Part shown: positions 2,230 to 63,290 of the stretch, one piece after another
Position numbering within the stretch: the first letter of the stretch is position 1
Layout of the letters: the number at the start of each line of letters is the position of its first letter
Source of the DNA: Xestospongia bergquistia
Lineage: Eukaryota; Porifera; Demospongiae; Haplosclerida; Petrosiidae
Direction: 5' to 3'
Assembly (NCBI GenBank): GCA_963965975.1
Contig: OZ014417.1
Coordinates: 3,825,821-3,889,820, forward strand
DNA: 64,000 nucleotides
Translations under genes and position numbers: made by a program
Notes under the pieces: generated by a model
Database searches by the model: none
Told to the model about the DNA's origin: nothing
Seen by the model: the letters and a program-made list of their open reading frames with translations, nothing else

Positions 2230-4800
2230 TGTAAAGACCGTTCCCGCCATGGTGGTGGAATAGCTGTTTATATTAAATGTTCACTTTCATTCAAAGTAAT
2301 ACCATCCCCCTTGAATCTTGAACTTGTTCTTCTCTCTATCAGTATTTCTAATTACTCACTCATGCTTGACTCTTTCTATTGGCCTCCAAATGACAATGGA
2401 TCTCTGGACATCTTAATCAATTTCTTAACCTCTCTAAGCCATGATCGTATGAAAAACTTTTTTTCTCACTGGTGATTTTAACATACATTTTATGAGCCCT
2501 TCTCCCCTGTTAACCAAACTCCTTGACTTTACCAACTCGATTGGTCTTTCTCAAGTTGTCAATGAACCTACCCATTATTCTCACTTAGGAACACCATCAA
2601 TTATTGATCTTATCTTTGTTCCTTCAAACTTGTCATGACTTTCCTTTGTTTTTCCTCCATTGTCTTCTTCAGATCATAATTCATTATTGTTCATTGTCCC
2701 TCTGAGACAACATTACAAACCACCCTCTAAGAACCTTCATAATATTTGGCTTTATAGTAAAGGTGACTTTAAAGCAGCTAATGTAATTCTCTCTTCTCTT
2801 CCCTGGCACTCTCTATTATCTTCTATTGATGTCAATTACTCTTGATCCATATTTAAAGAAGTCTTTATTGAAGTAATGAATCGCACCTTCCTATCTAAAT
2901 TAGTGCCTATTAAAAATTCTCCACCCTGGGCTAACAGCCACCTCCTTTCTTGTATCCGCAAACGTAGTGCCCTATTTACTAAAGCCAAAAGAGCTAAATC
3001 ATCATCCCTGATGTCCCAATATCGCATTTGTAGAAATAAAACACTTTCCTATCAGCGTCACTTGAAATCTACCTTCTTCTTCTATAAGCTGTCCCCTTCT
3101 TCATCCTCCAAGGACTTCTGGTCTCTCTTTAAGAAATTGAATAAGAAGTCTTCCTCTATTCCCAATTTGTACTTTAATCGCTCCTCAGCTACCACACCCA
3201 AAGCTAATATGATTAACCAATTCTTTTGTAACTGTTTTAATCTATCTGTTCCTCCCCTTTCCACAGCTTCTGAAGACTCTTGTCCTTCTGAAGATTCTCC
3301 ATCTTATCTTTTATACTCCAATGTCAAAGTGCAAAGCTCCTTCTTCAGATTCCATCAAATACTTCTACAGGTCCCAATGGTATTTCAGCCCATATGTTAA
3401 GAGAAACTGCCTACTCCATTTCATCATCACTTACTTCTATCTTTAATCTTTTGATTAAGTCTGGTATCTTTCCTGACAATTGGAAAAACTCTCATATTAT
3501 CCCAATACCAAAGCACTCTTCAGCTCCATCTTCTCCCACAGGTTATCATCCTATATCTCTACTACCACTTATCAGCAAAGTTCTAGAAAGACCTATTTTC
3601 AACTGGTTAATGAACTTTTGCCAGACTCATAATCTTTTATCTGTGTCTCAGTTCAGCTTTAGACCTGGTTATTCCACAGAGTCCACCCTGATTACTGCCA
3701 CTAACTCACGGTTTACTCAGCTGCATAAAGGGTACTCTATATCTGTGCAACCTTTTTTGATTTAACTAAAGTATTTGACTCAGTTCCACATCAACCCCTT
3801 CTTGATGTACTTTCTTCATTTGACATCCCTCATCACCTTATCGTTTGGTTTCAAAGTTATCTCACACTTCGATCTCAGCAGGTTGTTGTTGATGGCTGTT
3901 CCTCTTCTAAGTCCTCCGTCCTATCAGGTGTTCCTAAAGGCTCGATTCTTGGACCACTTCTCTTCATTTTGTACGTGAACGACATATTCCAGTTACCTTT
4001 CTCCTCAACTTCTATCATCCTATATGCTGACGACATCCTTTTATCATGTCCCTTCATTCCTCGAATTTTCACTTGCATCTAACGTTAATATTCTCTCTTC
4101 CTGGAAAAATCTAAACACCTAACAATTAATCACTCAAAAACCAAATACATGATCATTTCCAGAAAGTCTCCTTCATCCTTTACTACACTTCCTTCTCTCT
4201 TCCTTGATGAATCACCTCTTGTATTACTCTCTTCATTTAAGTACCTAGGTGTTAATCTAACCTCTAACCTCTCCTGGTCTACTCACATCAATGAAACCTG
4301 TTCTAAGGCTAAGAAACTGCTTGGCCAAATCTATCATCAATTTTACTATAACTCTTCTTCTGTTCTTATTAAATTGTACATGACATTAATCCTCCCCATC
4401 CTTATGTACAGCTCCTCTGTTTGGGATCCATATTCCATTCTTATCATCAACAAATTAGAAAAAGTTCATCATTTTGCACTCTACTTCTACAACCCTTCAA
4501 TCTTCCTTCACTATCCTCCCGCAGAACAACATCTAAGCTTGTCCTTTTAGACATGTTATCTTTAGTAAGCTGTTCATTCCTGCTGGCTCTTTTTCATTTC
4601 AAAACCAGCCCTCTTATAATTTACGCTCTTCCCATCCTTTAAACCTGAATTTTGCCCTTCTCCAGATCTTCTGCTACCCTCAACTCCTTCCTTTCCACTG
4701 CTATTTCCCTGACTGTGTGGAATTCCCTTACCTCATCACTCAAAGATCTCAACTCTGCAAGTCAGTTCAAGCAAAATATTTCTTATTTACTTTAACATTA
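2230..4800 (+). pseudogene. Decayed non-LTR (LINE) retrotransposon, endonuclease plus reverse transcriptase
   Basis: Conceptual translation over several frames gives the end of an APE-type endonuclease (GGGIAVYI at about 2250, TGDFNIHF at about 2470, SSSDHNSLL at about 2662). A reverse transcriptase follows: GYHPISLLPLISKVLE near 3544, QFSFRPGYSTES near 3650, FDLTKVFDSVPH near 3755, SGVPKGSILGPLLF near 3925 and the catalytic YADD near 4021. The C-terminal block has FKYLGVNLTSNLSWSTHI near 4235 and WNSLTSS near 4722. Several frameshifts and stops break the ORF, so it cannot be active. The order and motifs fit the Jockey/CR1-like group of LINEs. ORF1 and the 5' end are not visible, and no poly-A tail is obvious. 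Two related minus-strand fragments occur at 40.6 and 42.4 kb. Confidence 0.9.
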
Positions 4801-16096: not shown

Positions 16097-19000
16097 TTTG
16101 AAACCAGTGGAGCATATGTAGTAACTGGTCGACGTACCCTACTCGAGCGACGCAGTGTTTCACCTGTACTTGTAGAAGTAGCAACAGGCGTTTGATTTGG
16201 CACTAGAGGTGAGGATGGATGAATTTTCCAATCATCAAATAAATCTTCAAAATCTTCTGAATTGTCAAATGCATCTTCAGTATGACGAGAACGTAACTGA
16301 TCAACATGTCTTTTAATAACATTGCCTGCTTGAGTTTTAACTTGATATGATTGATACTGGGCCAGTAATTTTGACTACTGTAACTGGTATCCATTTCTGT
16401 GTTCCTGAATAATTTCTAGCAAAAAGAGCATCACCAATCGAAAATTTTCTAACAGTAGTTTGAACTACTTTCTCTTGTTTATCTCGAATTTTCTTGTAAA
16501 ATATCAGGATGTAGTAAATCAAATCTGGAACGTGGTCGTCTGCCCAATAAAATCTCTGCTGAGGCTAGCCCAGTAGTTGACTGAGGAGTAATCCTATAAT
16601 TAAATAAAAATTTAGAAATTTTTGACTCTAAACTGCCATCCATTTTTCTAATTGCTTGCTTAAATGTCTGCACTGCACGTTCAACTAATCCATTGGATCG
16701 AGGATGATATGGTGATGTTAATGTATGATTGATACCGTGGGTTTTGTTCCATAAATTGGCTAAATTCATTACTGGTAATGCTGATCCATTATCAGACACT
16801 AGTTGTTCTGGTATACCGTGGATACCGAAAATGTCACGTAATTTATTAATGGTCACTGAAAAAGAGGTTGATCCAACTATGTGTACTTCTAACCACTTAG
16901 AATGTGCATCTATTAGAAGTAAAAATTGTTTTCCATGAAATGGTCCAGTATGATCAACATGGACTCTTGACCAAGGTCTATTTGGATATTCCCATGGATG
17001 TATAGGAGCTTGAGCTGGGGCAGGTTGGTGAATTTGACAGGTGTTACAATGTGCAACAGTATTTTCAATATCCTTTTCTATTCCAGGCCACCAAATGTAT
17101 GATCTTGCTAGGTTTTTCATCTTAGACACTCCTGGATGAATTTCGTGAAGTTGTTGTAAAATAATATCGCGTCCAGGATGTGGAACAATGACTCATGATC
17201 CCTAAAGAAGAATACCATTAACAACACTTAATTCTGATGCCTTCTGAGAGTAAGGTCTTAACTCATCTTCAGTTTCAGGAATTTCACCATCACTTTGAAT
17301 CAATTTTCTAACTCTAGATAACACTGGATCTTTCTCTGTCCATAGCTTGATATGTTCAGCTGATATGATTCGTTCTGATAACTGACTAAATAGAAGAAGT
17401 AAATTTCCTGGTGTAGGTACATAATCAATAGTGCTTGAGAGTGGTAATCTGCTGAGAGCATCAGCGTTACTCATCTGTGTTCCTGGTTTGTAATGGATAC
17501 TGTAATCATAAGCTGATAATGTTAATGCCCAGTGCTGGACTCTTGATGATGACATGACTGGTATTGGTATAGATTCGTTCAGTATGTATTTCAATGGTTG
17601 GTGATCTGAGTATATGGTGAAGTGATGACCATTGAGGTAGTGATGCAATCTCTTGACTGCAAAAACTATTGCTAAGGCTTCTTTTTCTAATTGTGAATAA
17701 TTCTTTTCAGCAGGAGCTAAAGTGTGGGGAATGAAAGTTATTGGTTTGTCACTACCATCATTCATACGATGAGAGAGTAGAGCACCAATGCCATACGGAG
17801 AAGCATCACAAGCCAGCAGTAATGGTTTCTTGTCATCATAGTGAACTGAAAGAGAAGAGGATTGTAATAAACTTTTTACCTTTGTAAATGATTTTGAATG
17901 TTCAGTAGACCAATTCCAACGACTATTCTTACGTAGCAATGAATGTAATGGGGCCAGTGACGTAGACAGGTTAGGGAGGAACTTGTGGTGATAATTCACT
18001 AAACCAAGAAAAGATTTTAATTCAGTAACATTAGTAGGTTGTGGAGCTTGCTTTATTGCTTGTACTTTCGAAGGAGATGGGTGTAACCCATTTTTGTCGA
18101 TTACATGTCCTAGATATTCAACGGATGTTACTGTGAAAATACATTAATTTTGACTTTTTTAGTGTCAGTCCAGCTGATTCCAATCTTTGTAAAACAAGTT
18201 CGAGGTTATTTAGGTGATTTTGTTCATCTGTGCCAGTGACAAGAATATCGTCGATGTAAACACAAACGTATGGTAAGTCTCTAGAAGAGACTCCATGGTT
18301 CTTTGAAATAATGCAGGTGCTGTTTTAATTCCAAAAGGTAGTCTCTCGTACTGAAACAATCCGTGTTGAGTTGAAATGGTCGTAAATTTCTTGGAGTCTT
18401 CATGTAACCAAACTTGCTGATACGCATGACTAAGGTCTAATTTTGAGAAAACAACGCCTCCTGTGAGAGCGGAAAAAAGGTCTTCCACCCTAGGTAGTGG
18501 ATATGAATCTGGTTGTAGGGTTTTGTTCACTGTAACTTTGTAGTCACCACATAATCGTAATGTTCCGTCTGTTTTAAGGATAGGAACAATAGGGGCTGCC
18601 CATTCTGAAGAGGTAACAGGAGTCACAATATTTAGTGCTTGAAGGCGTTGAATTTCTTTTTCGACTTTTTCTCTAAGTAAATATGGAACTAGGCGGGGTT
18701 TGAAAAATCGTGGTTTCACTTGTGGGTCTACGAATAATTTTGCAGTGTAAGTATTTAAACATCCTAAGTCAGGTTTAAAAAGGGGTGCATATTTCTCTAA
18801 TAAATTGTTCAATGATCTCTTGGGTGATACGACATGAATTTTGGTCCAATTTAGTTTAATCTGCTCTAACCAATTACGTCCTAATAAACTAGGACCACTG
18901 CCATGAACAACAAGTAAAGGCAATGTAAACATGTTATCTTCATATGAAACATCTACCTCTAATGAACCTAACATTACAATACTCTCACCTGTGTAAGTGT

Positions 19001-19136
19001 GTAAAGTGAGATCAGTTGATTTAAGCTCTGGGGGAGTAATTAATGAAAGGTAGGTACTCTCACTAATAATGGAAAGGGAGGCTCCAGTGTCCACCTCCAT
19101 TGACAACTCTGACCCATTGATTTTTACAGTAACCAC
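16093..19136 (-). pseudogene. pol: gypsy pol: protease, RT, RNase H, integrase
   Basis: The protease carries VDTGASLSII near 19080. The reverse transcriptase has LCGDYKVTVNK near 18545, FSKLDLSHAYQQV near 18420 and YIDDILVT near 18250, the last reached only after a frameshift near 18275. RNase H shows LACDASPYGIGALLSH near 17800 and YSDHQPLKYIL near 17600. The integrase has IWWPGI and HCNTCQ of its zinc-binding part near 17100-17040, the DDE residues in HVDHTGPF, VSDNGS and NGLVERAV, and a C-terminal segment ending at 16093. Two in-frame stops lie between RNase H and integrase (about 17194-17206), and another frame change occurs near 16480. All catalytic residues checked are present, but the reading frame is not. 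Confidence 0.93.
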
Positions 19137-19383
19137 AATGGTTTGCCCTCCCTAGGAAAAGTAAACATTGGGTAGGCATTATTGGGTTGATTAATCTGGT
19201 TTGAGGCAAAAGGGGACTGGTCTAGTTTGGTTTTAGAGTGTTCTAAAGTGTGTGTTGGCTGACCTCTAGCAGTTGATGTGGTTGTGGCAGACTTTGATGA
19301 TTTGGAGCGAGTTCTGCAAACTCTTGCTAGATGACCTTTCTTGCCACATGATCTACAATCTGCAATGATGAATTTGCATATCA

Positions 19384-20031
19384 AATTGCATAATGATTCC
19401 CTCCACATCTATAGCACTCAATGGTTGTTGGAACTGTTCTTTGTTTTCTCTCTTTAGGCGGATTTAGGTGATGAACTGGTTGATGAGGTACCATGGTTGA
19501 AGAGGTTCTTTTTTGCATATCTGCGATATCCTTGGCAGCTAATTCCATAGCCTGAGCTGTGTCCAACGCATTTTGATAAGTTAGGTTCCTTTCTTGTAGT
19601 AACCGACTTTGTATTCTTGAGTTATTAATACCGCATACAATACGGTCTCGTCCCATTTTGTCTAACTTAGGACCATAATCGCAATATTCAGCTAGTGATT
19701 TTAAAGCAGCCACGTAACTTGCAACAGATTCTCATGACTCTCTAACACGAGTATTGATTTTATAATGCTGCACAATAGTGCTTGGTTTAGGATTGAAGTA
19801 GTCGGACAGGACTTTGACTAGTTCATCGTAAGATTTATCATTCGGACAGGTAGATTGCAGAAGATTCTTCAATAAATCATAGGTAGCTGCTCCGCTGCAT
19901 GACAGCAGAATTGATTTCTTTTTTGTTTCGTCTGTAATATCGTTAGCCGTAAAATAGCATCCCAATCTTTCGGAATATGAAGCCCACGATTCACTATGCT
20001 GATCGAAGGTGGAAAGTTTCCCATGAGCCAT
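19384..20031 (-). pseudogene. gag: gypsy gag with zinc knuckles
   Basis: The likely start is MAHGKLSTFDQHSESW at 20031, shortly after the PBS; the longer upstream frame runs into the LTR and is not used. The capsid-like region is interrupted by TGA at 19732-19734 and continues in frame with SYVAALKSLAEYC. Near the 3' end CYRCGGNH is followed, after a frame change, by CRSCGKKGHLARVC (about 19350), a CCHC nucleic-acid-binding knuckle. Gag packages the element RNA; here it is broken at two places. Confidence 0.85.
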
Positions 20032-20060
20032 CTGGCAAGTAAATGTGTCTTCAACTCTTT

Positions 20061-20074
20061 GACCCTCATCGCCA
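20061..20074 (-). other. tRNA primer-binding site of the gypsy element
   Basis: Two bases inside the 5' LTR the minus strand reads TGGCGATGAGGGTC. Its complement ends in CGCCA, as a tRNA 3' end does. The tRNA identity cannot be told from this alone. Confidence 0.65.
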
Positions 20075-20076
20075 AA

Positions 20077-20288
20077 TGAAATAACCGAGACACACGCAAT
20101 CACAGTCCACAAAGAACTACTGAATAACATTAAATGAAAACACAAATGACTCAAATAACAGTATAAAAATTGTACAAAAATGGGTCTAACAAAACTCACT
20201 CACTAACTAACTGAAAATGCAAAAAACAAAGGCTTAAATACAAAATATGTTATGAATATTTATAAGTTACGGAGGCCAGAAGATAGGA
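20077..20288 (-). repeat. 5' LTR of the gypsy element
   Basis: It matches the 3' LTR from tgaaataaccgaga through gttacggaggcc. Its outer end (20279-20288) is diverged from the other copy, so the exact boundary is uncertain by about ten bases. Confidence 0.88.
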
Positions 20289-22892: not shown

Positions 22893-24241
22893 CCATCATT
22901 CAAAGTGTTGTCCACCAAAAAGGCCTAAATGTTACTGTTACAAAATGTTGGTGGGAGTCATCATTGTCTCTTAGAAATCCTGAACAATTTTCCTATATTA
23001 GAGCCGTGTGTACCTCACATGAAGCACTTGATCATTATTTTGATAGACTTTAAGAAACATTAGATCAAAATGACTTGTCCAGTAAACCTTGCCAAAAATA
23101 TAACTATGATGAAACTGGTATGCCACTAGACCCAGCACCTCCCAAAGTAATTGCTCTGAAAGGTCAAAAACAATCTCAATCCATTAATCATCTCATTAAT
23201 CAAGACATTCATCTTATTATACTCCATCTGTTATTAATAAAGCTGCAGAGTAATGAATAATTATGTTTTGTTTACCACCTCACTCTACACACTTGACTCA
23301 GCACCTTGATAAGGGATGTTTTTTTGGTTTTAAAGAGATATTGGCAAGAGGAGTGCCATAATTACTTAAGCTCAAACCCTGGAAAGGTTACCACGAGGTT
23401 TACATTTTGTCAGGTTTTTCAACGTACATGGACTCAAAGCATGACAATGGAAAATGTTATAAGTGGTTTTCGTACCACTGGAGTTTACCCAGTTAACAGA
23501 GCAGCTCTTTTTATTAAAACATCAGTAAAATATAAAATGGCAGATTTAGAAGCCTAGAAATGCATTACATTCGCCTTTATAGCCCATCTCTATCAAGACA
23601 TAATACATCTTCAGTACATAATACTACCTTCACTACTGAAGAGATATTACATTTTTAACAATGTTATGAGGAAGACTATGATTTAGAGACTGATGTACGA
23701 TATAACAAGTGGGTTGAAATGTATCATCCTCAAAGTACACCACAGTCTTTATCACCACATGTTGGGGAGCTTTTTCCTTTTTCTGTTTCATGATCACCTG
23801 ATACTTCTAGACCTGAAGTAGAAAAATGTCATGGATCTCAAAGTTGTCAACTTACCTCAGTCACCACTCTTTCTAAATTTTTAAATGAAATGCCAAATAC
23901 AAAACTTCCAAGAAAAGAAGCAAAGACATCTGCTCGTGTTTTGACAAGCAACAAAAATCGTAAGATGCTTGAAGAAAAAGAGAGGAAGAAAAGGGAAACT
24001 TTGGAAGAAAAGGAGAAGAAAAAATGTGCCCTAGAAGAAAGAAATAGGAAAAAAAAGAAGCTGAACTTAAGAGACTTGCAAGAGAAAGATCAAAAAGTAA
24101 TTGCATTAATATAATGAATATACTTAATCAATTAATACTCTTTGTATTTACTACATGCAGAGAATCATATGGCAATTGAAGAAAAAGAGAAAACAAAATT
24201 AGAAAAATTGAGAAAGAAAGAAGAGAAAAAAGAAAAAAGAA
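22893..24241 (+). pseudogene. Decayed Tigger/pogo-type transposase
   Basis: Translated pieces match the neighbouring minus-strand Tigger gene: KCWWESS, SHEALDHYFDRL, YNYDETGMPLDPAPPKVIAL with the first catalytic Asp at about 23110, then HSTHLTQHLDKGCFF with the third catalytic Asp and NVISGFRTTGVYPVNR near 23450. About 85 residues including the second Asp are deleted near 23200. The segment YNKWVEMYHP (about 23710) comes before the lysine-rich coiled coil LEEKEKKKCALEER (about 23900-24096), the reverse of the order in the other copy. An intron with gtaatt...tgcag (24097-24160) separates a further coiled-coil exon, which ends at gtatgt (24242). Several stops and frameshifts make it a pseudogene. 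Confidence 0.85.
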
Positions 24242-24778
24242 GTATGTAGAGGCGTGGCTCAATGATCGGACACTCTGGTGTTTTTACTGTTTTTAAATAA
24301 ACGGAGCGTTCGAAGCTAACTTTCGACACCAGCTTCGAGTGCCCCAATCCGTCATATAGTTATTGCAAAAAATATACTGAAAAAGAATGCTCTTTGCACA
24401 ATTTACAAGCATATATCCTGTACACTTGTGATAATGATAATACGGACATTCTTATGTAGATTCGAACGATGACCATATCTTGGTAACAATTATAGCTTGA
24501 ACGTTTTCTCTGCTTTTGAACACTATATAAGATGTAAAGAATTAACTGTCAAAATTTGGAGAAATTTCTACATACAGTTCTGAATATACATTTCTTTGAA
24601 AACATGAACTCATGGACGAATAAACGGACATTTAAGAGAAGTGCTTTTCTAAAGTAGGTGATAAGTTCTTGTTATTTATTAACTCAAATTTGACAATCAC
24701 AAATACTGTTTATTAATTAAACAAATTCACTGTGCATGAAGAAATAATTTTACAACAAAAAAGTCTAGCAGTTAATTA

Positions 24779-24933
24779 TTATATGTCACACATAAAACAA
24801 ACAAAATTTAGTGATTTTTCTTTCTTGATCCCAACACATATCATGTGGTACCACTGGAAACATTTTTCACATTCCACCCAATTAGTTGCTTTAGTATGAA
24901 AACATAAATTATTAGAACATGCTGATAGTTTTT
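24779..24933 (-). CDS. Terminal exon encoding a C4HC3 PHD finger
   Basis: After the acceptor ttctgtaat (minus: attacag) at 24934, the phase-1 frame gives KLSACSNNLC, then NWVECEKCFQWYHMICVGI and FVCFMCDI before TAA at 24779-24781. The spacing is C-X4-C-X10-C-X2-C-X4-H-X2-C-X12-C-X2-C with the conserved Trp two residues before His, a full PHD finger. PHD fingers usually bind histone tails. C-terminal PHD-like fingers are known in several metazoan Tigger-type transposases. The exon is too short and lacks Met, so simple ORF searches miss it. Confidence 0.75.
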
Positions 24934-27900
24934 CTGTAATAAAATACATGAATTGTATTATTATATTGTGAATATTTTCATACTGGTTGTCAGATTATTC
25001 TTTGACTGTTCTAGTGTAGTTTCTAAAATGGCAAGCCATTAGTCAAGGGTTAATTATAATATAATGTCACATACCATTATCACTGAGTCCATTCTTGTCA
25101 TATTCACTGAGTCCTATCTCTTCTTCACCTCTCTTGTTAGTACTTCTGGTACATCTCTTCCTCCCTGTAACAAGGATTATTAACTCATAAATACTTCAAT
25201 ATATATACATTACACATACTGGAAATTTGAGAATTTTTAGGTAATGTCTTTGACTGTTCTAGTGTAGTTTCTAAAATGGCAAGCCATTAGTCAAGGGTTA
25301 ATTATAATATAATGTCACATACCATTATCACTGAGTCCATTCTTGTCATATTCACTGAGTCCTATCTCTTCTTCACATCTCTTGCTAGTACTTCTGGTAC
25401 ATCTCTTCCTCCCTGTAATAAGGATTATTAAGTCATAAACACTTCAATTTATATACATTACACATACTGGAAATTTGAGAATTTTTAGGTAATGTCTTTG
25501 ACTGCTCTAGTGTAGTTTCTAAAATGGCAAGCCACTAGTCAAGGGTTAATTATAGTATAATGTCACATACCATTATCACTGAGTCCATTCTTGTCATATT
25601 CACTGAGTCCTATCTCTTCTTTACCTCTCTTGCTAGTACTTCTGGTACATCTCTTCCTCCCTGTAACAAGGATAATTAACTCATAAATACTTCAATATAT
25701 ATACATTACACATACTGGAAATTTGAGAATTTTTAGGTAATGTCTTTGACTGTTCTAGTGTAGTTTCTAAAATGGCAAGCCACTATTAAAGGGTTAATTA
25801 TAATATAATGTCACATACCATTATCACTGAGTCCATTCTTGTCATATTCACTGACTCCTATCTCTTCTTCACCTCTCTTGCTAGTACTCCTGGTACATCT
25901 TTTCCTCCCTGTAACAAGGATAATTAACTCATAAATACTTCAATATATATACATTACACATACTGGAAATTTGAGAATTTTTAGGTAATGTCTTTGACTG
26001 TTCTAGTGTAGTTTCTAAAATGGCAAGCCACTAGTCAAGGGTTAATTATAATCAAATGTCACACACCATTATCACTGAGTCCATTCTTGTCATATTCACT
26101 GAGTTCTATCTCTTCACTTCTCTTGCTAGTACTTCTGGTACATCTCTTCCTCCCTGTAACAAGGATTATTAACTCATAAATACTTCAATATATATATACA
26201 TTACACATACTGGAAATTTGAGAACTTTTGGGTGACTGTTCTAGTGCACTTTCTAAAATAGCAAGCCATAAATTCAAAGTATAATTAACCTCAGGCTGTA
26301 TCACTTACTATTCTCATCTACTTCACTGAGACTGATGTTTCCATCACTGGATTTACATGCTGTAGCATCTAAAGATAATTCTTCAGGATGGAATATTTTT
26401 TTCCATTTTTCATATCTGATGTCAGGTAGATCATAACCATTCTCATACCTCCTAGAAAACCGACTGTGCTCTTCTTCTGTAAAATCAAATTTTGATGTAC
26501 TCTGTTCACATTGTTTTTTTTCTTTCTTTTGTCTCTCTTTCTCGGCTTTTTCAACTGCTCTTTTATTTTTTCTCTCCTCTACTTCCTTCTTTTTCTGTTC
26601 TCGTTCCATTGCCTTCTTTTCTCGCTGTTGCTTTCTAAGATCTTTAGCTTTTAATTCATCTGCTTTCTTCATTTCTTTTTCTCTTATCAACTGAAGATTT
26701 TCAGAACTTGTTAAAACACGAGCACTGTGGTTTTTTTTCTCATTACTTGGTAGCTGAGGTAAAGTAAGAAAATCATGAAGAGTAGATGGCTGAACTTTTG
26801 TAATGCAATCTTCATCTGCAGAAAAGTTAACATAGTAACCACAGGTACTGTCTTCAGTACAAGTGTGTTCCTCATAATAATCAATGCTTTCACTATCGGA
26901 AGTAATACAGGTACGAGGATGAGACTTAGCTGGGCTATAAAGAGGAAGAAACAGTCCCATCTTGGAGGCTATCATATCTATTTTCCCATCCTCCTCAAGT
27001 TGCAAGTAACGTAATACTGCATACCTGTTGAAGGGGTATATACCAGTGGATCTAAACCCAGCAACAATATTGGCTGGTGTCATTGCCTTTGTCCAGGCTC
27101 GACTAAAAATTTCGGTGAAATTAAATCTATTAACGGCTTTACCAGGATTATAGGACATGTAGAGATGACACTCATTATTGTATGCCTTTTTTAAGGGGCT
27201 AAAACAAGACCTGTCCAGTGGTTGACACAAATGAGTTGTATGAGGTGGCAAGCAAAATAAGATGATCTGATTTGCAGCAGCTGTCCTGATCAATTGAGGT
27301 TGGTAATGTGAAGAATGTCCATCCAGGAGTAACAAGATGGGTCGTTGTGGAGGGATGTGAAGTAAGAAGTGATTAGTAAACCATTCCTGAAACAATTCGG
27401 AATCTATCCATCCATTTTTAGACAACCCATATGCAGTACCTGGGATTTCTCCTGTTGTGAAATTAGGCTTGAGTTTTTTCCGATCAAAAATTATCATCGG
27501 AGGCAAAAGGTAACCAGAAGCACTGCATGCTGACAAAACAGTAATTTGGGCTTTATCACCACTAGTAATACAGGAAATATCTCTCTGACCTTGTACTCCA
27601 ATTATTTTGCCAGGTTTATGTTGCAATGGGAACCCGCTCTCATCACAGTTAAAAATCAGCATTGGTGATTCAAGCAAATTATTAGACTTCAATGTTTCTT
27701 CAAGCAAGTCAAAATATCGATTTATGACATCTGGGTTAGCTGCAATAGCTCTACGATATGCTAATTTGGATCCATATCTTAATCGTAGTTTTGGATGCTG
27801 CTTCACAAATGAGCCCCACCAACCAGTAGTGACATTGACATCTTCAACTTCACATTGACGTTTCTTTGCTAGTGCTGCCCTAACAATACAAAGAACTTGT

Positions 27901-27939
27901 TCCTTTGTCCGAGCGAAGCCAATTTTAGCTGAACCTACC
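24779..27939 (-). CDS. Tigger/pogo-type DDE transposase with tandem-exon linker and PHD finger
   Basis: Predicted exons in coding order are 27939-26309, 26153-26067, 25908-25819, 25660-25571, 25412-25323, 25164-25075 and 24933-24779; all junctions are phase 1 and all frames stay open. The big exon encodes about 545 residues: the end of a CENP-B-type DNA-binding region (TTGWWGSFVKQHPKLRLR), then a DDE_1 core with NCDESG (D100), LLLLDGHSSH (D207) and CQPLD (D243), giving DD35D, and a Lys/Glu-rich coiled coil at about 410-480. The ATG at 27941 is probably not the start, because tttggtag|GT reads as a splice acceptor. The preceding helix-turn-helix exon was not found. A transposase cuts and pastes its own element in the nucleus. 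The open frame suggests recent activity or domestication. Confidence 0.8.
25075..26308 (-). repeat. Tandem array of five symmetric exons with their introns
   Basis: A unit of 248 bp is repeated, its exon starts lying at 25075, 25323, 25571, 25819 and 26067. Four exons are 90 nt and the fifth (26067-26153) 87 nt. Every copy has a TTACAG-type acceptor and a GTATGT donor (GTGTGT in the last). Every copy starts and ends in phase 1 and is free of stops. Each encodes a basic piece RKRCTRSTSKR, an acidic GEEEIG, and SEYDKNGLSDN. The end of the transposase exon (ISLSEVDENS, then GTAAGT) resembles the unit end, so the array probably grew from that boundary. Differences between copies are few and mostly in-frame. 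Confidence 0.9.
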
Positions 27940-27941
27940 AA

Positions 27942-28540
27942 AAATGTTACTATAAATAATGACTAGTAACTTTAACATGTTATCTGCCTACCCTTCCTCC
28001 TATTCTTGTGACTATAACATCATACCTACAGTATAATACATGGTCTATGACATATTTTAGTTTATGGGATGACTTTATCTTTTTTTCTCAAAGGTATTAA
28101 AAACAAATAATATTGTCATATAATTAATTGATTATCATTTAAAAGTTTATTTCACTCAGATTATTATAAATCAAATATCTATCACATGTTTACCTACTTA
28201 TAGTAAAGTTAGTCATAAAGTCAAGCAGCTATTAAGCCTTAGTACAACACTCTTATTATTAAAAAAGTGAACTGACTCTGTTATTACAGACATACTTACT
28301 AATCACTAAAATGGCCAGGGTTGACTAAGGTATTGCTAACACATAGCTCAAGCCATCAAGTCTTCCACATGGACATCTATACATTATCACAAATTACCAT
28401 GTTTGATTCTTTCCACAATAGTTAATATGAGAGAGTCCTGGCTAAGGTTTAACTTGAGGTAGATTTAGTTGATAGAAAGAGAAAGACTCAGAAACTGACA
28501 GAAAACTCCTAGCTAACGTTTAAACTTGAGGTTGTGTTGT
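27942..28540. other. Upstream intron or spacer of the Tigger gene
   Basis: Searched on the minus strand for a helix-turn-helix exon of pogo type; none was recognised. Sequence is AT-rich without coding signal. Confidence 0.35.
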
Positions 28541-28745
28541 CCGCCAAAACATACCACGTGTCCGCAAATACATTTAACTCCGTACAAGCACCAAAAACGG
28601 AGCTCATTCACAACACGGAGTTTAGTTAGGAAACTCTGCAAGGAAAGTGTATTCATTGAGCATAACCAAGAGCCACATTGTACGGAAGCAATAAGCTGTC
28701 TTCAAATTTTTAGAAGAAAAAGTGTCCGAAAATAGATTTGTCCGT

Positions 28746-30423
28746 CCATTGATTTTCGACTCTACAACTTACCTATCCATCAAAACTGTATAACAAAACA
28801 AGGCAATCAAAAGCCTCACCATTTTAGAGTTTGAGCACTAACTGCAATATTAAAATCTTATAAACTTTATTTAAACAACAGATATTTTTATTTTTAATTT
28901 AAAAAAAGTTTCACAAGCATTCCTAAAATGTAAGGGATGATTGTGCACAATATATAATCCTTACATTGTAGCCACATATGTTAACGTTTACCTTGAATGC
29001 ATATATTCAGAGTTCAATGTATTAGAATTAAATTTTAACTTTTTATTAAGAAAGTATCTCACCAAATTTGTGATGTTTCTTATGCTGCAATAAACGTGAA
29101 ACTTCCCCGAATGCAGGATACTAGTCAAGCAGTTATTGCTCTGCTACCATTGCAGACCTTACCTTGTATACTTGAAGCAACAATACTGTTTTTTGTAATC
29201 TTGTTGTAAGCTTCAATCTTAAAGGTATTGTTTGAATTCTTTTATTCATTACAACAGCAGAATAAATTGATAAAAATGAACAAACCTGTTGCAATATAAA
29301 GGAACAAAATGCAGAATTGTCACCACAGTATCTGTAGTTATGTTAGTTTGTTTGTAATTGCTGCTAGTGTATGAAAACTTATTAATAAACACCTAGAATA
29401 AAATATCTAACAGACTTTGTTATTTTATGCAGTCCATGTTGAAACCACAGGCATGGTAAGTACCAGCTTAACAATCAAAGTCAAGCGGGAATTTTGAGTT
29501 TAATATTTATTGTTTTCTGCCATTATGTTTCATTGGACAGTCCTGATCATAAGCACTGGTAACTTGTTACTGATATAATGTCCATTCTGTCCTAATCTCT
29601 TTAATGTTTATTGTTATTGTTTTATTAAAAGTAAATTTATTTTGAATCTATTAAGATTACTTTATTAATGTTGTATAGTTGGTTCAGTTGATTGACCATA
29701 AGTCAGTCTACCTGGCACCTGTATCAATGACAATCAATGTAGTAGCTGCTTAAAAAATACTTCATTCAAAGTAATGAACTGTTAAAATTTGGCTTAAATA
29801 AATTTTACTAGGCCTGAATGAATTACTTTCAAAGGAATTAGGCCAGCACATGTAACTTAAGTGAACCTTCAATCATTGTTTTGACATTACTGGTATTTTA
29901 ATAATATCAATAAAAGTATCTATCTTAATTGAAATAAAATGTTGCAACTTCATTAACATCATGAACCAAAGGCATGGTAGTGCAAACATCTAAACCATCA
30001 CAGTATATTTAGTAATTGTATTATAATAATTCTTACATATAACAACCATAGTAGAGTCTAAGTAAATATGCATAGAGTTTATGGTCTTTGGTATAAAACA
30101 TAATTTATTTTTCCAACGGAAGTTGTTACTTTGTTACTATGGAATCCTCTAGCTCGATACTGTCTTCTAATTATGCATAATTTATACTATTAATGAAAAT
30201 GTCAGACGACACTGAGTTCACACATGTTCAATCATCTAAACCAAATCTAGTGTACAGAATAAGTCTAACAGATAATAGATATTTTGTGCACATAGTGATT
30301 TTATTATAATCTCTCTATGAAACAGTATATTCACTGTAGAGTATGCAGACAAGACAGTGTTTACTAGTAGTATCTTTTAAAAAAATGAACATGACACATA
30401 TGTCAGTTTAATTAGTAATTACG
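28746..30423. other. No gene seen
   Basis: AT-rich sequence with no exon set, repeat or motif that I can support. Confidence 0.35.
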
Positions 30424-45247: not shown

Positions 45248-46102
45248 TCATTCATCATTTTCTGAATCTGGTCCTTCGATTACATATTGTGTTATGGCAT
45301 TAGTTGATGCAGTGGTATATCTTGAGTAAACTGCTGTATCTGCTACTACTCTGTTGATAGAGAAAGGATTATGATGTCTCTGGTAACAACAAGACTTCTG
45401 TAGAAATGTGACATGAACTAGAAGTGCTAGTCCAGAGAAAAATCCCAACAGTCCATTTATTACTGAATGTACCATTACTAAATTATAACTCCCATGTGAA
45501 GATATAGCTCCATAGATCCGATCGACTATGGCAAAGAGACTTAGCGTATAGAATATAATTGGATATCCTAGCAATGGTAGGAGTTGTTTTAAAGCAGTCT
45601 TGTTACGATTTTGTTCTTGGTTAATTATCAATGATTCGCCCTCTGCTTCATGGTGTCTACAAGCTCTACAAGTTAAAACAAAAAGGATGCCAATGACCAT
45701 AAATAAACAAACAGTAAGAGAGACAAAGAGAGGTCCATACCACAATACAAATTGTTCAATAATGCCTTCTTTGTACTTGCTATTGGGACAGTTGTCATTC
45801 CAATTTCTTATCCAACACAATGCATTTTCTATGCCATATGAGTTATGAAGTTCATAGAAGTTTAATCTTGATGGAATATTAGTACCACTTGAAAAAACTT
45901 TCCTTTCTTCTATTAGTATACTTATCCTTATATCTCTACAGTCCAATATTTGTACTAAATTCTCAATATGACACATGGCAACTTCATAAAACTCTCCAAA
46001 TATGCACCAACATATTGTACTCCTGAGGAGATGGAAAAAGTCAAACAATTCTTTCAAGTAAGGCCAAAGTGCCAGTAAGACCTTTAGTAACTGGTCCTTC
46101 AA
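45248..46102 (-). pseudogene. Truncated tandem copy of the seven-TM receptor, chimeric ORF
   Basis: From about residue 86 (HNSYGIENALCWIRNWNDNC) to the end, the 284-residue frame matches the C-terminal half of the receptor at 46679-47731, covering the second extracellular loop and TM5-TM7 plus the acidic tail ending SENDE. The first ~85 residues do not match; they are the antisense reading of a PAE-like exon (45875-46108, plus strand). The junction lies at about 45850. TM1-TM4 are gone, so no functional receptor is expected although the frame is open. The copy may be expressed only as a by-product. Confidence 0.75.
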
Positions 46103-46108
46103 GACTTC
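45875..46108 (+). pseudogene. Fragment of a pectinacetylesterase (Notum-like) 3' part
   Basis: The plus strand matches 61922-62110 almost base for base (cagtccaatatttgtacta, gacacatggcaacttcataa, tgtactcctgagga.atgg). That is the PAE exon with the catalytic Asp (NSQYDTWQL in the better copy). It then jumps to the last block (gccagtaagac.tttagtaactgg, encoding ASKTFSNW), skipping the exon with the catalytic His. Here the frame is broken. It is a duplicated piece that replaced the 5' half of a receptor copy. Confidence 0.7.
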
Positions 46109-46678
46109 TGGAAAATCAAAAGAAATTGACTGTGTCTATCCATGTAATAAATCTTGCTGAACATAATTATTACAAAAATTATTGTTATGGTTGTTTGAGG
46201 GAAATAGTAAAATACACTATGTTCTCATTGTTAATATAGTAATGATCATACTGTTAACTTCTCAATATAGACAATAGCTATGACCACTTTAATCTTCATG
46301 TACTATACAATCTATTTCCCTGTTATCTTTACACAGATACATTGTAGTTATAAGTAAGAACATCTGTTGCTTTCTCTTAATAGGGAAATCTGTTGCCTAC
46401 ATCTGTTTAATTACATCATCACTATCACTAATGTTAGGCCAAGGTTGTTGTTTTAGCAATCAAAATTAACAAATGCACATCAAACAAGTTACATTTATCA
46501 CAGGTATAGTGTTTGTGGTTTTGTATCCTCCTACCACTACAGAATCCACTCTATACTAGTAGTAAACAATACTTAATTGTTTGCAGATGAAGTTTTATTA
46601 ATGAATAAAATTGAATGAAAAGTACTTCTAATAGATTAATACTATATACTGCATAAAAATGAATTAAGCTGGTAAATT
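46109..46678. other. 3' flank of the receptor gene, duplicated
   Basis: From about 46180 this matches 44640-45247, the flank after the truncated copy (catctgttgctttctcttaa, gggaaatctgttgcctacat). It shows that gene and 3' flank were duplicated together. No gene of its own. Confidence 0.7.
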
Positions 46679-47731
46679 TCATTCATCTTTTTCAGAATCT
46701 GTTTCCTCAGGTTCATATTCGGTTATGGCCATAGTGGATGTTATGGTGTATCTTGTGTAATTAGTTGTATTTGCTACTGCTCTGTTGACAGAGGAATGGT
46801 GATGTCTCTGATAATGAGATTTTCGTAGAAATGTAACATGAACTAGAAGTGCTAGTCCAGAGAAAAATCCTAACAGTCCATTTGTTACTAAATGAGCCAT
46901 TACTAAATTATAACTGCTATGTGAAGATATAGCTCCATAAATCCGATCCACTAAAGGAAGGAGAAGTAGCATATAGAACACAATTGGATATGCTAGCAAT
47001 GGTAGGAGTTGTTTTAAAGCAGTCTTGTTACGATTTTGTTCTTGACTAATCATCAGTGGTTCAGCCTCTGCTTCATGGTGTCTACAAGTTCTACAAGTTA
47101 AAACAATAAAGGTGCCAATGACCATAAACAAACAGACAGTAAGAGAGACAAAGAGAGGTCCATACCACAATACAAATTGTTCTATAATGCCTTCTTTGTA
47201 CTTGCTATTAGGACAGTTGTCATTCCAATTTCTTATCCAACACCATGCGTTTGCTATGCCATATGAGTTGTGAATAAATGGAATCCAGACATGAAGTAAA
47301 GGAAACAGCACAGATAGCAAAATGTAGATGACTTCTAGTTTCACAAAGTTTTTCAAACACACAGCCAGACAAAACAAATGAAAGACAAGACACAATGTAA
47401 ATAGAAGTTTTACCCACATTGTATATTGGATAAGAAAAGCTGTTGTTTTGCAGGCAATAGAATAAAATAGACTGCTTCTATAGTTCATATTTAATATAAC
47501 CAGACATTCAGTCATACTAAACAATAACGCAGCGACAACTTGGTAAATTGCCAATCGATAAACAAAATATTTGTATAACTTTAGACAAAGAACTATTACT
47601 ATTGTCACAATACACATCAGAGTTGATACAGCACTAATACTTGTCATTGCTATCAGCAAATGGTTCATTTGACTCTTTGTAAAAGATCCATTGCAATCAT
47701 TGGAAAGCGAGTTGGAAGGTAAGATCTCCAT
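46679..47731 (-). CDS. Seven-transmembrane receptor, cAMP-receptor/secretin-like GPCR
   Basis: An intronless 350-residue frame with seven hydrophobic segments at about 24-50, 57-81, 92-118, 131-151, 184-212, 238-260 and 276-302. The N-terminus is short with one N-glycosylation site (NGS at 14-16). The second extracellular loop has NAWCWIRNWN; the CWI motif and a partner Cys before TM3 (SIACK) form the usual disulfide of the cAMP-receptor, GPR157-like and secretin/adhesion groups. The tail is Ser/Thr-rich and ends with an acidic cluster (ETDSEKDE). It should sense an extracellular ligand and couple to G proteins at the plasma membrane; the ligand is unknown. The start at 47731 is the first Met and places TM1 correctly. 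A truncated copy lies directly downstream. Confidence 0.85.
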   Translation of the reverse strand: MEILPSNSLSNDCNGSFTKSQMNHLLIAMTSISAVSTLMCIVTIVIVLCLKLYKYFVYRLAIYQVVAALLFSMTECLVILNMNYRSSLFYSIACKTTAFLIQYTMWVKLLFTLCLVFHLFCLAVCLKNFVKLEVIYILLSVLFPLLHVWIPFIHNSYGIANAWCWIRNWNDNCPNSKYKEGIIEQFVLWYGPLFVSLTVCLFMVIGTFIVLTCRTCRHHEAEAEPLMISQEQNRNKTALKQLLPLLAYPIVFYMLLLLPLVDRIYGAISSHSSYNLVMAHLVTNGLLGFFSGLALLVHVTFLRKSHYQRHHHSSVNRAVANTTNYTRYTITSTMAITEYEPEETDSEKDE

Positions 47732-61819: not shown

Positions 61820-62316
61820 TGTTTAAATGCAGAACAGTACTAGTGGAGTCAATCAGAAATGTATCATGGCTAACAGGAATGAAGTTTGGAAGTGTATTAT
61901 GGCTCAGGTACTTTACTGTTGAAGGAATATTGGTACAACACTTTCCTTTCTTCCATTAGTATACTTATCCTTACATTTCCAGTCCAATATTTGTACTAAA
62001 TTCTCAATATGACACATGGCAACTTCATAACACTTTCCAACTAAAATGCACACCACCTAATTGTACTCCTGAGGAAATGGAAAAAGTTGAACAATTCTTT
62101 CATGTAAATTTAACAACAATTAATCATGCTTTGTGTTGACAATTATATAGGATTTTCAAAAAGCTGCTTATCGTATCATTACATTTGAGAGTAATGGTGC
62201 TTTGCTTTTCTAGACTCTTGTTTGACTCACTGTCATTCTATGAGTGACAAATCTTGGAATTCAATATAAGTAGAAGGTCCATGTGCCAGTAAGACTTTTA
62301 GTAACTGGTACTTAAG

Positions 62317-63290
62317 TAAAGGACATCCTATGGCCTTCTCTAACATTGGCTTTAGTCCTGCTTATTCATCCCTCTCCCTTGCCCTAAGGGACTAATGAAC
62401 AGTAAAGGACATCTTTTGGACTCCTTTAACACTGCCTTTAGTCCTGCTTGACCATTCCTTCCCCTTGTCCCTAATGTACTAATGGACATTAAGTGAAGGA
62501 AATCCTATGGCCTCCTTCAACGTTGCCTTTAGTCCTGCTTGTCCATCCTTTCCCTTTGTCCATAAGGGACTAATGGACAGTAAAGGACATCTTTTGGACT
62601 CCTTTAAAATTTCCTTTACTCCTGCTTGTCTATCCCTTCCCCTTGTCCCTAAGGGACTAATGCACAGTAAGTAAAGGACATCCTATGGCCTCCTTCAACA
62701 TTGCCTTTAGTCCTGCTTGTCCATCCTTTCCCTTTGTCCATAAGGGACTAATGGACCGTAAAGGACATCCTTTGACTCCTTTAACACTGCCTTTAGTCCT
62801 GCTTGTCCATCCCTTCTCTTTGTCCATAAGGGACTAATGAACAGTAAAGGACATCTTTTGGACTCCTTTAACACTGCCTTTAGTCCTGCTTGACCATCCC
62901 TTCCTCTTGTCCCTAAGGGATTAAAGGACATCCTATGGCCTCCTTTAACATTACCTTTAGTCCTGCTTGACCATCCCTTCCTTTTGTCCCTAAAGGACTA
63001 ACGGACAGTATGTAAAGGACATCCTATGGCCTTCTTTAACATTGCCTTTAGTCCTGCTTGTCCATCCCTTCCCCTTGTCCCTAAGGGACTAATGGATAGC
63101 ATGTAAAAGACATCCTATGGCCTCCTTTAACATTGCCTTTAGTCCTGTTTGTCCATCCCTTCCCCTTGTCCCTAAGGGACTAATAGACAGTAAGTAAAGG
63201 ACTCCTATGGCCTCTTTTAACATTGCCTTTAGTCCTGCTTGTCCATGCCTTCCCTTTGTCCCCAAGAGACAAAAGTTTGTCCAGTGAAAT
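62317..63290. repeat. Dimeric ~90 bp satellite array
   Basis: About eleven units starting ggacatc lie at 62321, 62407, 62499, 62585, 62676, 62763, 62849, 62927, 63017, 63108 and 63199, spaced 78-92 bp. Two variants occur: A with ctatggcctcc and B with cttttggactcc. They alternate ABAB at the left and become AAAA at the right. The shared core includes cctttagtcctgcttgtcca and ccctaagggactaatgga. The minus frame at 62707-62931 is the array read in one frame, not a gene. A decayed unit continues to about 63360. Confidence 0.95.

Follow-up and report, generated by a model that had tools for sequence, protein, structure and literature searches.

Tandem arrays of phase-symmetric mini-exons between the transposase and PHD-finger exons of pogo/Tigger-like transposons in a sponge genome

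In a 64,000-nucleotide stretch of the genome of the sponge Xestospongia bergquistia (contig OZ014417.1; hereafter the window), five phase-symmetric open mini-exons lie between an exon for a DDE transposase and an exon for a PHD finger, and at the level of sequence the reality of this array is confirmed. We propose, with a probability of roughly 0.65, that the array is a normal part of the gene of a pogo/Tigger-like transposon, and that it would encode an expandable linker from the catalytic core to a chromatin reader. The relevant features of the window, in the order in which they would be transcribed, are as follows.

24247..28764, minus strand: transposon copy of family A, delimited by the end of similarity to other copies and by its end sequences
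28397..28399, minus strand: proposed start codon of exon 1, placed by eye, then a GTAATT donor
27953..27954, minus strand: deletion junction, about 718 bp missing by comparison with L040, among them the beginning of the long exon, where the HTH is encoded
26309..27941, minus strand: what is left of the DDE transposase exon, with no stop before its donor (PF03184, E 5.7e-29)
26303..26308, minus strand: donor of the transposase exon, GTAAGT, phase 1
26067..26153, minus strand: array exon 1, 87 nt, phase 1 to 1
25819..25908, minus strand: array exon 2, 90 nt, phase 1 to 1
25571..25660, minus strand: array exon 3, 90 nt, phase 1 to 1
25323..25412, minus strand: array exon 4, 90 nt, phase 1 to 1
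25075..25164, minus strand: array exon 5, 90 nt, phase 1 to 1
24779..24933, minus strand: PHD-finger exon with stop codon and phase-1 acceptor, preceded by TTATTACAG (PF00628, E 5.9e-6)

Tandem Repeats Finder placed a repeat at 24999-26233 (period 248, 5.0 copies, 95% match), in keeping with the low divergence among units remarked on in an initial sequence-only reading of the window. All five array exons are preceded by TTACAG, and their donors are GTATGT in exons 2-5 and GTGTGT in exon 1. The phase-1 frame is free of stops in all five, both alternative frames being stopped in every case (5/5), and when the transposase exon is joined to the PHD exon with 0, 1, 2, 3, 4 or 5 array exons, the product is always a single open frame to the PHD stop. 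The repeat scan and these joins bear out what the same reading had said of exon sizes, phase symmetry, open frame and the transposase and PHD neighbours. The first intron is 81-84% like the array introns over the part that matches, and, as judged by eye, a unit ends (LSEYDKN) much as the transposase exon does (LSEVDEN).

The window copy has imperfect terminal inverted repeats of 24 nt (17/24 matching) and is flanked at both ends by TA (a candidate TA target duplication, as read from the ends). Comparison of copies shows that, between the positions matching window 27954 and 27952, L040 carries some 718 bp; the stretch deleted from the window copy includes the start of the long exon, where HTH_psq is found in L053, also of family A. 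On this comparison the window copy is a deletion derivative without the N-terminal DNA-binding domain and, because these 718 or so bp with the HTH start are missing, it is unlikely to be a source of full transposase. Next to it lies what remains of a second pogo element (23401-24234, 90% identical to L068), and, judged by the TA end, the window copy was probably inserted inside that relic.

A search of 146.5 Mb of the genome (21 contigs) revealed at least 40 copies of family A. The array was present in all 37 that could be parsed, with 1-5 units each (one unit in one copy, two in 13, three in 11, four in 10 and five in 2), giving 110 units, 3 of them partial; these counts are minima, some loci stopping near the array. 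A further copy, L064, has eight units, three of them with GC rather than GT donors (2223, 2717, 3459). The expectation that unit number would vary between copies of the family was therefore upheld (1 to 8), and no copy without the array came to light among the 37. The idea of a unique insertion into a single transposase gene has to be rejected: the array is a standing feature of 37/37 parsed family A copies and of six more families. Exon lengths in the family A arrays are 66, 87, 90 and 99 nt (and once 91 nt), and the array introns are 156-164 nt long. Many family A copies are near-identical members of clusters, one on each of six contigs (C5, 4.57-5.19 Mb; C6, 3.37-4.24; C7, 4.74-5.19; C10, 2.43-2.68; C13, 3.30-4.15; C15, 2.44-3.10), mostly spaced at 100-220 kb, as though a very large and perhaps centromeric tandem repeat carried them. 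Unit number differs widely even among near-identical copies, and one stop in the last unit is common to 14 of the 18 parsed cluster copies and L051.

The six further families (B-G) came from searches with relatives, in which the DNA downstream of 21 DDE matches was examined (L064-L084, a subset of the matches listed). L064-L071 and L080-L084 were picked blind to their downstream content, and L072-L079 are more members of array-bearing families. A tandem array followed the DDE exon in all 21 loci, which represent families A-G, and the layout of families B-G is that of family A: an HTH and DDE exon, 2-20 phase-1 mini-exons and a PHD exon. HTH_psq and DDE_1 were both recognised by profile matches in L053, L065 and L070. 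Arrays of the six families are as follows.

Family B (L065, L066, L068, L077): exons of 66 or 84 nt, 2 to 16 units
Family C (L069, L070, L075, L076): exons of 60 or 84 nt, 13 to 20 units
Family D (L071-L074, L078, L079, L082): exons of 54 or 60 nt, 9 to 12 units
Family E (L067): exons of 54 nt, 3 units
Family F (L080): exons of 72 nt, 12 units
Family G (L081, L083, L084): exons of 57 nt, 8 to 12 units

The array introns of families B-G are 35-54 nt long. Between families, units could be clearly aligned only when B was compared with D, its sister (z 5.7); z was 3.5-3.8 for four other pairs. A PHD exon with a phase-1 acceptor is present in all seven families (read by eye in family E), and a PHD piece was found in every family, that of family C being only partial; none was found in the decayed L068 of family B. 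The PHD exon of family E (L067 2633-2752) contains a 30-bp repeat in four copies, coding for GLDDTEIDNV.

PF00628 exceeded the Pfam cut-off in three of eight PHD pieces (those of families A, D and F; 26.6 bits against a cut-off of 24 for family A), and matched the pieces of families B, C (partial), E and G and of the Amphimedon protein P0007 (see below) at scores below it. The type of PHD finger varies by family, being KDM5-like in family A (KDM5B, E 4e-6) and ING-like in family B (L066 3204-3376; ING1, E 8e-17) and, by eye, at the C-terminus of P0007; the PHD reader may have been exchanged. PHD fingers of ING and KDM5 proteins bind histone H3 tails.

With pogo/Tigger elements, family A shares DDE_1, HTH_psq, TA at the ends and short inverted repeats. 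In P0001, which is 93% identical, the second D and the third are separated by 35 residues, and this DD35D falls within the DD29-36D spacing given for Tigger in the available text of PMC7386202. Unlike pogo/Tigger elements, the sponge families have a C-terminal PHD exon and a mini-exon array; the available parts of PMC7386202 and PMC7325037 mention neither a PHD finger nor an intron. The predicted protein LOC100641974 isoform X2 of Amphimedon queenslandica (P0007) has a 54%-identical transposase and, between it and the PHD finger, eight full repeats of 19 residues flanked on both sides by diverged copies. The repeats of P0007 and of the window differ in sequence; the exons of family G, too, encode 19 residues. 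In a tree of close relatives only, from which F and G were left out, family A grouped with P0007 (support 100/100) and B, C, D and E in a second clade (96/97), both clades being array-bearing. Either the array is ancestral and its unit sequences have turned over, or it has arisen repeatedly at one site. In P0068, DDE and PHD lie in a single open frame, so a PHD finger can occur without such an array. Another match lies in a symbiont MAG from the sponge Iophon. With the Amphimedon tail as query, only the tail itself was matched; none of 20 pattern matches in GTDB genomes, or of 4 in IMG/VR, was confirmed as a relative, and a search for relatives of the transposase among solved structures found none.

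How much should be made of the open mini-exons themselves? That a single unit's open exon is remarkable on its own is not supported, as shuffled units often hold one: an open symmetric exon was present in 74% of shuffled window units if any AG/GT pair was accepted and in 27% with stricter sites, the corresponding ranges across families being 36-93% and 10-47%, and in families F and G the proposed exon fails the strict splice-site rule. The weight of the evidence is in the recurrence of the layout in 7/7 transposase families examined, rather than in any single unit, with the qualification that the seven families are not independent, because they have the phases of their DDE donors and PHD acceptors by common descent, nor are the units inside one array independent of each other.

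Retention of the frame was assessed in full-frame copies, in which a full-length transposase is uninterrupted (L003, L004, L065, L070-L076, L078, L079), and in other copies, among which L005 (605 or 542 aa), L069 (537 vs 583 aa) and L082 (613 vs 639 aa) were placed, their frames being shorter than their family's. The 137 units of the full-frame copies showed no bad lengths and no stops; the 204 complete units of the other copies showed 5 bad lengths, 21 stops and 11 changed splice dinucleotides. Of the stops, 15 represent a single inherited change and two more result from a frame break; all five bad lengths are in L041, L080 and L083, whose transposase frames contain stops; and, among the changed dinucleotides, three are GC donors and one belongs to a first unit of family C. 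Three first units of family C, in full-frame copies, have no AG at the aligned start, a later in-phase AG being used (as read by eye). When distinct length classes were counted by hand, 10/14 of those of exons and 4/13 of those of introns were in frame (one-sided p 0.04, the classes not being fully independent).

The residues themselves tell a different story from the lengths. Among 96 unit variants (from 11 family A copies, L065, four family C and seven family D copies), 75 were nonsynonymous, 20 synonymous and 1 a stop, against expectations of about 65, 28 and 2.6 (two-sided p 0.057 for nonsynonymous versus synonymous); the deficit of stop-making variants (1 vs 2.55 expected) was not significant. 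Values of pN/pS for units were 0.84-1.35 in family A, 1.2 in B, 4.6-4.9 in C, and 0.46 and 4.5 in D. These values and the variant counts lead us to reject strong purifying selection on the array peptide; the peptide is free to drift, and it is frame, symmetry and position that are held. Array residues drift almost neutrally, their composition being 21-47% S/T and 12-22% R/K. The earlier suggestion that the frame had been kept 'by selection or by youth' can thus be refined: residues are nearly free of constraint, whereas length and frame are retained in copies with a full transposase frame and lost in some others.

We envisage that a full copy would comprise an exon with the putative ATG, one long HTH and DDE exon, the run of tandem mini-exons and the PHD exon. 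As all junctions from the DDE exon onward are in phase 1, array exons could be gained, lost, skipped or included in frame, if spliced as predicted. The length of the array, which ranges from 1 to 20 units across families, would change through tandem duplication and loss, probably by unequal exchange or by gap-repair slippage after excision. The product would be an expandable linker rich in S, T, R and K, probably disordered, tethering the catalytic core to the PHD finger, which, to judge by its kinship with ING and KDM5, would keep the transposase on chromatin or direct it there. Should the first array intron be retained, a stop would be met after between a few and a few dozen codons, possibly giving a second transposase without linker or PHD finger. 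A bolder suggestion, put forward tentatively because it seems to us to fall short of probable, is that a clade of animal transposons keeps the array as a fast-evolving module, whose units turn over with position, phase and symmetry kept, so that the length and chemistry of the tether can be changed in each copy, and perhaps in each transcript, retuning targeting or escaping silencing by the host.

Near-neutral residues are also what might be expected if the array were a neutral by-product, its repeats arising by slippage or gap repair during transposition and its exons being spliced to no functional end, with frame-broken copies merely ceasing to spread. The wide variation in unit number among near-identical copies, and the accumulation of stops and frame breaks in decayed copies, also fit such an origin; nevertheless, we consider it unlikely, as place and layout recur in 7/7 families examined with units that are mostly unalignable, and the Amphimedon protein has repeats at the corresponding place.

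Another idea, in keeping with the early end of the transposase frame on read-through past the first donor, is that the array is a splicing switch, whose many small exons delay splicing or make it variable and so set the ratio of PHD-less to PHD-bearing transposase, the peptide (in line with its drift) mattering little; but an irrelevant peptide would have no need of exon lengths in multiples of three, which 137/137 full-frame units keep, and we regard this idea as improbable. Least probable is that the repeats act as DNA, as binding sites or a minisatellite with coincidental exons: the repeat unit does span introns as well as exons, and introns have diverged about as much as exons in families C and D, but multiple-of-three lengths are kept more by exons than by introns, no unit sequence is common across families beyond B and D, and certain copies have only one or two units.

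Returning to the array as a linker-encoding part of the transposon gene, tandem phase-symmetric exons encoding an extensible segment are familiar from titin PEVK and similar host genes. Those arrays are in single host genes, whereas the present ones recur across transposon families. The micro-exon genes of schistosomes have a coding region made up mostly of very small symmetrical exons that allow variable splicing, but these are host genes for secreted proteins, and the available text does not describe their exons as head-to-tail copies of one exon (PMC4350168). A literature search (with most subscription papers, and Repbase, outside it) found no mini-exon arrays in any transposase. Pogo elements and genes with small symmetric exons are thus both known, and their apparent combination across seven families is one for which we found no precedent.

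Tandem exon duplication is usually studied one gene at a time. The seven families of transposons described here, all from one genome and with numerous copies that differ by degrees in age, provide replicate cases of array growth, shrinkage, homogenisation and frame retention. If the linker reading is true, these would be transposases with chromatin readers on tethers of adjustable length, offering a new handle on integration preference, and the arrays would supply host genes with symmetric exons ready for use.

Finally, we draw attention to other features of the window. Open frames at 16479-20199 (minus strand) resemble, by eye, the pol of an LTR retrotransposon, and frames at 2876-4550 (plus strand) similarly resemble a decayed reverse transcriptase of a non-LTR retrotransposon. 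Two similar seven-helix receptor-like genes are adjacent to each other at 45248-47731, and a tandem repeat with a period of 178 or 91 (about 84-90% match) occupies 62313-63270.
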